The notes under the pieces are model-generated. The model ran no database searches. It worked only from the letters and a program-made list of their open reading frames with translations, and was not told the DNA's origin. The position numbers were made by a program, and so were the translations under genes. Shown piece by piece: positions 36,252 to 38,635 of a stretch of 39,005 nucleotides of DNA (its first letter is position 1; each line of letters opens with the position of its first letter). Source of the DNA: Candidatus Polarisedimenticolaceae bacterium (GTDB taxonomy: Bacteria; Acidobacteriota; Polarisedimenticolia; Polarisedimenticolales; DASRJG01); contig DASVAW010000168.1 in NCBI GenBank assembly GCA_036376135.1, positions 1 through 39,005 on the forward strand, given 5' to 3'.

Positions 36252-36296
36252 CCGCGGCCGATAATCAGGGCCGTTTCCCGCCCGAGGAGGTTCCGC

Positions 36297-37604
36297 ATGC
36301 CCCGCCGCGTCCTGATCCTGGGTGCCGCCGGTCGCGACTTTCACAATTTCAATACGGTGTTCCGGAACGATCCGTCGAACGACGTGGTGGCCTTCACCGC
36401 GACGCAGATTCCCAACATCGAGGGCCGCCGATATCCGGCCGAGCTCGCGGGGAAGCTCTACCCGAACGGCATCCCGATCCACCGCGAGGAGGATCTCGAG
36501 CGACTGGTGCGCGAGCTGAAGGTGGACGAGGTCGTCTTCTCCTACAGCGACGTGTCGCACGAGAGCGTGATGCACATGGCCTCGCGCGCCCTCGCGGCGG
36601 GGACCGACTTCCGGCTGATCGGGCCGAACGCGTCGATGATCCCGTCGCAGGTCCCCGTCGTCTCGGTGTGCGCCGTGCGCACGGGGTGCGGAAAATCGCA
36701 GACGACCCGGCGCGTGGTTTCGATCCTCAAGAAGAAGGGGCGGCGGGTCGTCTCCGTGCGTCACCCGATGCCGTACGGCGACCTCGCCGCGCAGAAGGTG
36801 CAGCGGTTCGCCGCCCTCGCCGATCTCGACAAGCACCAGTGCACGATCGAGGAGCGCGAGGAGTACGAGCCGCACATCGCGATGGGGAGCGTGATCTACT
36901 CCGGGGTCGATTACGGCGCGATCCTGGCGGAAGCCGAGAAGGAGGCCGACGTCGTCCTCTGGGACGGCGGGAACAACGACCTCCCCTTCTATCGCGCCGA
37001 CCTCGAGATCGTGATCGTCGACCCCCACCGCCCCGGCCACGAGCGGACCTACCACCCCGGCGAAGCGAACCTCCGCCGCGCGCACGTCGTCGTGATCAAC
37101 AAGATCGACTCCGCGGACGGCGCCGGGATCGAGGCGGTCCGCCGCTCGATCCGCGAGCTCAACCCCGAGGCGATCGTGGTGGACGCCGCCTCGCCCCTCT
37201 ACGTCGAGGACGCCCGCGCCATCCGCGGGAAGCGTGTGTTGTGCGTCGAGGACGGCCCGACCCTCACCCACGGCGAGATGAAATACGGCGCCGCGGTCCT
37301 CGCCGCGATGAAGCACGGAGCCCGGGAGATCGTCGACCCGCGCGCCTTCGCCGTCGGGACGATCGCGGACACCTTCGAGAAGTACCCCGGGATCGGGACG
37401 CTCCTCCCCGCGATGGGGTACGGCGAGCGGCAGATGGCCGACCTCGCCGCGACGATCGCGAAGACCCCGTGCGATCTCGTCCTGATCGGGACGCCGATCG
37501 ACCTGAGGCGCACGATCGCCCTCGCGAAGCCCGCCCAGCGGGTCAGCTACGAGCTCGAGGAGATCGGCACGCCCACGCTTGAGGACGCCTTGGCGCGGTT
37601 CTGA
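36297..37604 (+). CDS. COG2403-type P-loop GTPase (cyclic 2,3-diphosphoglycerate synthetase-like)
   Basis: This 435-residue cytosolic protein starts with a nucleotide-binding-like strand-turn RVLILGAAGRDFHNFNTVFRN. It continues with FTATQIPNIEGRRYPAELAGKLYPNGIPI, a Walker A RTGCGKSQTTRR (128-139), LWDGGNNDLPFYRADLEIVIVDPHRPGHE (221-249) and a GTPase-like NKID (268-271). These are the features of the family that contains the archaeal cyclic 2,3-diphosphoglycerate synthetase; bacterial members have no proven role. GAGGAGG precedes ATG 36297. It is divergent from the ligase-ACP-Kbl operon across 157 nt, which hints at shared control. Its stop is 1 nt before a long palindrome. Confidence 0.82.
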   Translation: MPRRVLILGAAGRDFHNFNTVFRNDPSNDVVAFTATQIPNIEGRRYPAELAGKLYPNGIPIHREEDLERLVRELKVDEVVFSYSDVSHESVMHMASRALAAGTDFRLIGPNASMIPSQVPVVSVCAVRTGCGKSQTTRRVVSILKKKGRRVVSVRHPMPYGDLAAQKVQRFAALADLDKHQCTIEEREEYEPHIAMGSVIYSGVDYGAILAEAEKEADVVLWDGGNNDLPFYRADLEIVIVDPHRPGHERTYHPGEANLRRAHVVVINKIDSADGAGIEAVRRSIRELNPEAIVVDAASPLYVEDARAIRGKRVLCVEDGPTLTHGEMKYGAAVLAAMKHGAREIVDPRAFAVGTIADTFEKYPGIGTLLPAMGYGERQMADLAATIAKTPCDLVLIGTPIDLRRTIALAKPAQRVSYELEEIGTPTLEDALARF

Positions 37605-37605
37605 T

Positions 37606-37742
37606 AAATAGGGACAGCAACCTATTTCGGGAGGATTGGGGACAGTCACCCTATTTCCCCGATCCCGAAGCGCACAATTACGGGATCGGGGGAATAGGGT
37701 GACTGTCCCCAATCCTCCCGAAATAGGTTGCTGTCCCTATTT
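37606..37742. repeat. 137-nt near-perfect palindrome (REP/MITE-like), possible bidirectional terminator
   Basis: Arms 37606-37667 and 37681-37742 (62 nt each) pair with a single mismatch (a possible G-U pair in RNA) around a 13-nt loop (37668-37680). Each arm holds two related modules, AAATAGGGACAGCAACCTATTT-like and ATTGGGGACAGTCACCCTATTT-like, sharing GGGACAG and CCTATTT ends. Its lower GC content and modular design differ from the surroundings and recall REP-type repeats mobilised by RAYT transposases. It begins right after the GTPase stop, and the stop of the convergent TonB-C-like gene (37739-37737) lies inside it. In RNA it would form a very strong hairpin in both convergent transcripts. 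Confidence 0.85.
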
Positions 37743-38120
37743 TCCCGCTTCGAAGTGGAAGTGCACCTCGAGGGTCGGGTAGACCCACGACTTGGGGAGC
37801 TTCGGGAACGGCGCGGCCTTCTTCACCGCCTCGATCGCCGTAGCGTCCCACCCCGCAACCCCCGTGGTGAGGTGCTCCCGCAGGCCGAGAAGCGCCCCGT
37901 CCCGGGAGATCGATGCGATCAGGACGGTCTTTTTCCCGACCGCCGGGGCGGCGGTGGGCTTCCACCCCGCGACCACCTTCTTGAACGCCGCCTGCTGCCA
38001 GGCGGTGTCGTCGAACCCGGTCTGGAAGTAGGCGTTGGCCTTCGGCTTCACCCCGCCCGCGGCGAGGGCCGTTCCCGCGGCGACGACGAGCGCGATCGCG
38101 AGGCGGAGCGTCCGCTTCAT
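37737..38120 (-). CDS. Secreted TonB C-terminal-like domain protein without membrane anchor
   Basis: The 127-residue protein has a signal peptide (RTLRLAIALVVAAGTALAAG) and a short domain ending in WDATAIEAVKKAAPFPKLPKSW followed by YPTLEVHFHFEAGK. This matches the end of the TonB C-terminal fold, which typically has EAVRRA.PFPPLP...V.F.F. It has no proline-rich spanner or uncleaved anchor, so it cannot act as a classical TonB. The stop codon and last codons come from the palindromic repeat, so the original C-terminus may have been changed. ATG 38120 lies in a 4-nt overlap with the upstream gene. Confidence 0.7.
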   Translation of the reverse strand: MKRTLRLAIALVVAAGTALAAGGVKPKANAYFQTGFDDTAWQQAAFKKVVAGWKPTAAPAVGKKTVLIASISRDGALLGLREHLTTGVAGWDATAIEAVKKAAPFPKLPKSWVYPTLEVHFHFEAGK

Positions 38121-38635
38121 CGTGGCGCGGCCGCCTTTCGCTCGACGACCGGCGTCGCCGGCGGCGGATTGTCGGGATCGTATTTCGGCTGCAGCCACCC
38201 GTCACGGCAGAGGGCGGAGATCACGTTGCGGCCGATCGTCCGCCATGTGGCGGCGTCGCGGGAGGCCCCGTCGGCGGTCGTCCGCCCGTCGGCGACCCAC
38301 GCCGTCGTCCCGTCGTGGGTGATGAGGCTCGCCTCGAAGGCGACGGATCCCGAGTCCGGCGCGTCCTCGAGGAATCGCACGACCAGGGTGTAGTCGGGGG
38401 ACGGATCCCCCGCCCCGTCCTTCACGTGCGAGAGACGGAGCACGTCGGAGGTCATCCACGCGTGGAATGTGTCGAGGGCGACCGGACCCGTCCCTTCGAC
38501 CTGCACGCGCAGCGAGGGGAGCCCGAGCTTCGGGAGAGCCGCGTCCTGCGTCCGCAGCGCCACCGTCGTCGTCTGCGCGGACGCGGTGCCGGCGAGGAGC
38601 AACCCGACGACACCCAACCGAGCGAGTCCCCTCAT
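38117..38635 (-). CDS. Secreted hypothetical protein
   Basis: The 172-residue protein has a signal peptide (LARLGVVGLLLAGTASAQ) and a mixed alpha-beta mature domain: LPSLRVQVEGTGPVALDTFHAWMTSDVLRLSHV, DYTLVVRFLEDAPDSGSVAFEASLITHDG, TWRTIGRNVISALCRDG, with a proline-rich tail. The pattern is like small periplasmic or outer-membrane-associated proteins, but I do not recognise the family. GGGAGG precedes ATG 38635. Its stop overlaps the start of the TonB-C-like gene, so the two form an operon. Confidence 0.7.
   Translation of the reverse strand: MRGLARLGVVGLLLAGTASAQTTTVALRTQDAALPKLGLPSLRVQVEGTGPVALDTFHAWMTSDVLRLSHVKDGAGDPSPDYTLVVRFLEDAPDSGSVAFEASLITHDGTTAWVADGRTTADGASRDAATWRTIGRNVISALCRDGWLQPKYDPDNPPPATPVVERKAAAPR

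Follow-up and report, generated by a model that had tools for sequence, protein, structure and literature searches.

The window, by which we mean the whole 39,005-nucleotide stretch analysed here, carries a long palindrome between two convergent genes (Table 1). The upstream gene (called at 36291-37604) has a weak match to the CobW nucleotide-binding domain, while the gene facing it (ORF 37737-38198, minus strand) encodes a short protein with a TonB_2 domain. According to the first-pass annotation, the palindrome starts 1 nt past one stop codon and carries the other, and this arrangement was confirmed (TGA ending at 37604, TAG read from 37739 to 37737). The same annotation proposed that the insertion may have rewritten a C-terminus. 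At this locus it did not lengthen or shorten the right gene, compared with two remote homologues from Acidobacteria MAGs: the protein ends HFHFEAGK*, and the homologues (loci L131 and L132) end HFHFEVIK* and HFHFEVVK* (DNA read by eye). Since all three end at the same place, the position of the stop is unchanged, though the stop itself lies in the element. At another copy of the element, L077, both genes are shorter than in genomes G004 and G001. At L131 and L132, the gene next downstream of the TonB_2 homologue reads, by eye, like a helicase.

Table 1. Parts of the palindrome and the stop codons that border it, in window coordinates.
Feature	Position	Strand	Remark
Stop codon TGA, upstream gene	37602..37604	+	1 nt before arm
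Stop codon TAG, convergent gene	37737..37739	-	inside right arm
Left arm	37606..37667	+	62 nt
Right arm	37681..37742	-	61/62 complementary to left arm
Outer module AAATAGGGACAGCAACCTATTT, left copy	37606..37627	+	equals terminal inverted repeat of C179 transposase unit
Outer module, right copy	37721..37742	-	
Spacer separating layers	37628..37638	+	mirrored in right arm
Inner module GGGACAGTCACCCTATTT, left copy	37639..37656	+	
Inner module, right copy	37692..37709	-	one mismatch
Core hairpin	37657..37691	.	includes 13-nt loop 37668-37680; other copies have related cores

As noticed at first pass, each 62-nt arm holds two sub-repeats, so that the palindrome comprises four modules, the outer GGGACAGCAACCTATTT and the inner GGGACAGTCACCCTATT[T/C], each present twice. 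The pattern GGGACAGNNACCCTATTT, with up to three mismatches allowed, matches the window only at the two inner modules; two matches were found in none of 100 dinucleotide shuffles. Folded as a single strand, the palindrome reaches -130.7 kcal/mol (z -21.3), a value equalled by none of 200 shuffles. By both measures it lies far beyond chance. A search of positions 37400-37950 for intrinsic terminators (a GC-rich stem followed by a T-run) gave no sites, no known RNA family was matched within the window at the gathering threshold, and neither the plasmid collection nor the phage collection gave a match. A match to the module motif in the available text of PMC4853749 is a PCR primer.

The genome to which the window belongs (4.38 Mb in 179 contigs, 97.6% complete) was searched for further copies. 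The inner pattern, again with up to three mismatches, gave 32 matches against two for a reversed control. Blastn with the element retrieved 112 pieces that merged to at least 39 places, and the pattern added six, bringing the total to about 45. These numbers are lower bounds, since the blastn search scored 40 of 66 first-look candidates and since the repeat breaks the assembly at contig ends. The dispersed family suspected from the window alone was thus borne out by the genome-wide search; a single copy, present at the same site in all relatives, would have spoken against it, and what we found was many places and three other copies with empty orthologous sites (see below). Together with a second transposase unit on contig C30, 46 places were examined. 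Thirty-one form palindromes whose arms measure 24-87 nt, that is, dispersed terminal inverted repeat (TIR) copies arranged as dimers. The 15 left out of the palindrome counts are two transposase units, one copy cut by a contig end (L201) and 12 places with arms shorter than 24 nt, eight of them at contig ends. Overall, contig ends coincide with at least nine of the 46 places, and contigs C61, C63, C82, C112, C123, C133, C157, C161 and C172 end on repeat copies. No convincing direct target duplication was seen at any of eight offsets tested: offset 0 stood out (1 of 2000 permutations; next lowest was offset 4, with 65 of 2000), a signal that we read as the same A/G letter at the module edge on both sides of a copy.

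With a codon model for gene calling that was trained on three of the window's ORFs, 21 of the 31 copies lie between convergent genes, five between tandem and two between divergent genes, and three lack a readable context. The convergent site described for the window copy is therefore shared by 21 of the 28 copies with readable context; within the window, five of 31 gene junctions are convergent, the palindrome's own included. In 17 of the 21 convergent copies the stops of both genes fall within 13 nt of the palindrome edges, mostly just inside; a stop lies deeper inside in L064, L074 and L196, and one stop of L070 lies 54 nt outside. The same codon model, less reliable outside the window's genome, called 9 convergent among 17 elements examined, out of 40 retrieved, in three other genomes.

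A search of the genome for a transposase, as suggested at first pass, gave two Y1 (HUH) transposase genes above the Pfam cut-off, on contigs C179 (238 aa) and C30 (235 aa). The C179 protein matches PF01797 (E 1.8e-14) and contains the motifs NHVH and YVELNP, which we compared with Table 1 of PMC6006769; at E 0.01 a single relative of known structure was retrieved, TnpArep 4er8 (E 8.6e-6). For both proteins the best model is the NCBIfam REP_Tyr_transpos, at scores below its cut-off (70.7 and 77.7 vs 80). The C179 gene is flanked by perfect TIRs (25/25 nt) that contain the outer module of the window palindrome, with 100% identity over 24 nt at C179:82054-82077 and 82932-82955. The C30 gene has perfect TIRs of 27/27 nt, of GGGGTCAGGCCCC type; this second TIRYT-type unit (G000:C30, L062:757-1650) also lies between convergent genes ending in TAG. 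A protein search found a third, diverged Y1 transposase-like gene (C90:6235-6615, L236), which is possibly domesticated, and no GGGG-type TIR was among the inverted repeats listed for it. No Y1 gene bearing the inner module as its TIR was found; the C90 gene showed none either.

TIRYTs are Y1 transposases flanked by TIRs, some of which share the motif GGGGWSAS; in the available text of Di Nocera et al. 2013 (PMC3733652), this motif is common to some, not all, of the TIRs, the TIR families are dispersed as dimers or clusters, and the Acidobacteria form a sharply defined group of TIRYTs. Judging by two named but remote homologues, the window too probably comes from an acidobacterium. A motif of this type occurs as GGGGTCAG at C30, as AGGGACAG (one mismatch) at C179 and as GGGGACAG in many dispersed copies. 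Quentin et al. 2018 (PMC6006769) assigned 20 of 26 TIRYTs to subclass 2.1, with a median length of 238 aa, and did not find REP-like sequences in the vicinity of genes of this subclass. The C179 protein has exactly this median length, and the C-terminal helix-turn-helix of the subclass gave no Pfam match in it at E 0.1. The association extends to relatives. Among 22 Y1 loci (our two and 20 from relatives), 18 have flanking inverted repeats scoring above the best of 30 shuffles, and 16 of these 18 contain GGGG[AT]CA or AGGGACAG. Read by eye, the palindromes of G003 have the TIR type of a transposase in their own genome, GGGGACAGATTTATTTT, in all seven listed (of 24), and those of G006 have theirs, GGGGACAGGCAC, in four of seven listed (of nine). 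Of 297 genomes from the phylum, 36 have inverted GGGGACAG pairs, 15 of them at least three; since the reversed control gave one pair in each of 14 genomes and never more, genomes with a single pair mean little. A published but little-studied group of transposases, the TIRYTs (mostly of subclass 2.1), is in this way tied to a palindrome family dispersed through the genome that encodes the enzyme, and two further genomes show comparable pairings.

The 31 palindromes were sorted by hand into layer classes from a listing of their motifs. A CAACC-type module encloses a TCACC-type module in eight copies, the window's among them (L066 has GCACC outside and L063 has ACACC inside), and an inner TCCC- or TCCT-type module in five; four copies have reverse layer orders (L079 and L080; L074 and L076), the inner layer of L069 is decayed, and 13 copies have a single layer. 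The layer order is the same in both arms of 27 of the 31 copies, the exceptions (L067, L076, L080 and L193) each having one arm with a motif that is mutated or additional. Different layers enclose related core hairpins. Arms were compared in 11 two-layer copies whose outer module is of CAACC type: identity is 95.5% within copies and 68.5% between them, and the right arm nearest to each left arm is its own partner in every case. Departures from the consensus that are common to both arms number 112, compared to a mean of 27 (maximum 70) in 1000 partner shuffles, while 13 are confined to the left arm and 19 to the right. Since the arms of one copy change together, the 61/62 match in the window does not imply the recent origin that had been read from it. 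Covariation alone is not new, because compensatory changes in the spacers of REPIN hairpins were already reported in the available text of PMC3116915.

Mirroring also reaches beyond the repeat. Outward of the outermost GGGACA-type motif, the two flanks of a copy have a mean match of 7.16, compared to 2.57 between copies (31 copies; a few letters at the edge of the module itself count towards the scores), and none of 20,000 permutations was as high (permutation maximum 4.55). For L076 the right side was anchored at the wrong module owing to mutations in the outer one, which lowers the within-copy score. The highest scores belong to L198 (29), L074 (15) and L071, L185 and L024 (11 each); the window copy scores 5. 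In L198, 24 nt outside the module are mirrored, a 20-nt piece of which (up to three mismatches) occurs in the genome only at the two arms, and the mirrored stretch holds the apparent start codons of two divergent genes. Two single cases, read by eye, concern gene ends: the left gene of L080 ends YSLN* vs YSK*, YARP* and YSR* in relatives, and its added bases mirror the right flank; the right gene of L066 ends V* vs L* in two relatives, mirroring the left flank. Results from other genomes were mixed. Among 40 elements of seven genomes, taken from the first places listed for each, and by raw permutation counts from seven separate tests, flanks were mirrored beyond permutation in G186 (42/5000), G099 (11/5000) and G159 (38/5000), weakly so in G001 (200/5000), and not above permutation in G003 (599/5000), G031 (2058/5000) and G006 (2524/5000, two copies).

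The family, the ends it has in common with a Y1 unit, the nested mirrored structure, the covariation, the convergent context and the empty sites of other copies are all read directly from sequence. We consider it probable that the palindrome is a non-autonomous (MITE-like) TIRtron/TIRYT element, a nested and mirrored composite whose arms are kept alike by fold-back template switching. Its outer layer is the TIR of the C179 Y1 HUH unit, whose transposase most likely mobilises the element as single-stranded DNA. The inner layer and the core belong to further repeat families of the same kind, which makes the whole a two-layer composite nested around a core hairpin. Such a composite was probably dispersed as a unit, since the eight copies with CAACC-type outside and TCACC-type inside have the same layer types. 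Insertions mostly occupy sites where the 3' ends of convergent genes meet, with the arms often carrying both stop codons. From the covarying arms and the mirrored host flanks we infer that fold-back template switching during replication maintains the identity of the arms and at times carries them outward into host sequence. In the available text of Monttinen and Loytynoja 2022 (PMC8794818), template switching is described as a process in which reverse-complement copying makes and repairs the arms of hairpins; there it concerns the stems of RNA genes, whereas here it would act on a mobile repeat family.

The arms could instead be kept complementary by selection for the hairpin, as a single-stranded substrate of the transposase or, in RNA, as a bidirectional terminator or a protector of mRNA 3' ends, with no special copying mechanism. 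This alternative would agree with the very stable fold, the prevalence of convergent sites, the compensatory changes known from REPIN spacers and the flanks of G003, G031 and G006, which are not significantly mirrored. It would not, however, predict that host DNA outside the repeat is mirrored in the window's own genome, the 24 nt of L198 included, and no T-tract terminator was found. Selection on the hairpin is thus possible but, in our judgement, not the likely cause. Nested mirrored structure combined with mirrored flanks makes the origin and upkeep of long, perfect bacterial palindromes testable, in that hairpin selection can be set against template switching.

Relatives provided information on sites before insertion, though not for the window copy: its two flanking genes are neighbours in none of the 29 loci examined from the 36 relatives that have the upstream gene, and a scan of relatives' contigs for the downstream gene gave two remote loci, both without the upstream gene. 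At three other copies an orthologous gene pair has no element. The genes flanking L076 are 18 nt apart in G002, those flanking L077 overlap in G004, and those flanking L063 are separated by 155 nt in G004. No TIR motif and no long palindrome was seen at these sites (arm scores 9, 9 and 9 vs shuffled maxima of 8, 9 and 10). The L076 site is occupied in G001, by a palindrome from another TIR family together with what is left of a CAACC module. The L066 pair is uninformative, its stops being 775 and 951 nt apart in G001 and G004, with two six- or seven-base motif matches in the 951-nt stretch. Occupation of a gene end can be shared by both genera: the G001 orthologues of the right gene of L065 and the left gene of L074 also run into GGGGACAG modules. 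At L204, L227 and L237 of G001, gene ends that are occupied in the window's genome are occupied too, by other TIR families. Shared occupied ends in G001 may be either hotspots or long-lived sites with sequence turnover.

These sites bear on a further alternative, in which elements insert at the axis of pre-existing palindromes (terminators or older elements), which would make both layers and flanks mirror images at the outset. Mirrored layers in copies of both orders would be expected, as would the short mirrored stretches directly outside GGGGACAG in G159 and G099. In addition, orthologues of occupied sites meet an element in G001 as well, at two gene ends and at one gene pair. Against axis insertion, no long palindrome is seen at the three sites that are empty in G002 or G004, admittedly distant relatives; L198 would require a perfect palindrome of about 48 bp to have been there beforehand; and the same core type lies inside different layers, with no remnants of old cores seen by eye between layers. 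We therefore regard axis insertion as rather unlikely. Template switching after insertion could produce the same architecture by matryoshka growth, a proposal that we advance tentatively: fold-back switching would copy one arm onto the other and run into host sequence, and layers inserted in one arm would become mirrored. If so, the end or start of one gene (its stop, last codons, even a 5' leader and ATG) would be copied onto its neighbour, and a mobile repeat would edit the termini of adjacent genes. The nested mirrored structure and the mirrored flanks also bear on how repeats alter the stops and starts of the genes beside them.

As to its kind, the family fits the published TIRtron/TIRYT type rather than GTAG-tagged REPs. 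It shares with TIRtrons a Y1 HUH transposase flanked by TIRs with a GGGGWSAS-type motif, and TIR copies in dimers or clusters; it differs from those described in the available text in that its copies nest several TIR families into one composite, whose long mirrored arms are near-perfect and whose host flank is mirrored as well. From bacterial MITEs, which are likewise short non-coding elements with ends common to an autonomous element, it would differ in relying on an HUH instead of a DDE transposase and in having no convincing direct target duplication. The first-pass comparison with REP/RAYT elements was right in so far as there is a Y1/HUH transposase with dispersed repeats, although the nearest kind is the one with GGGGWSAS ends. 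Mobilisation of a canonical REP or REPIN by an E. coli- or Pseudomonas-group RAYT is very improbable. Paired inverted repeats, an extragenic site, a genomic Y1 transposase and the REP_Tyr_transpos model point that way, and REPINs (Bertels and Rainey 2011, PMC3116915) resemble the copies as non-autonomous hairpins of two inverted units with compensatory spacer changes. The canonical type was nevertheless rejected, as the tetranucleotide GT[AG]G is absent at the foot of the outer module (the arm begins AAATAGGGACAG, most other outer modules AAAT[AG]GGGACAG, by eye); the repeat motif is another one, matching the GGGGWSAS of TIRs, and the arms, compared with the REPINs of the available text, span two or more repeat families. 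The literature searched, mostly without subscription papers, yielded no account of TIR palindromes that are nested and have mirrored host flanks.

An assembly artefact of the draft genome, to which the copies at contig ends might point, is hardly credible in view of the asymmetric loops, the many arms with mismatches, the differing flanking genes and comparable palindromes elsewhere, for instance in the genomes G001 and G003. A different, GTTAACTGTTGACTGTTAAC-like repeat follows the orthologue of the right gene of L061 in G001 (L229; contig C1, about 107.5 kb).
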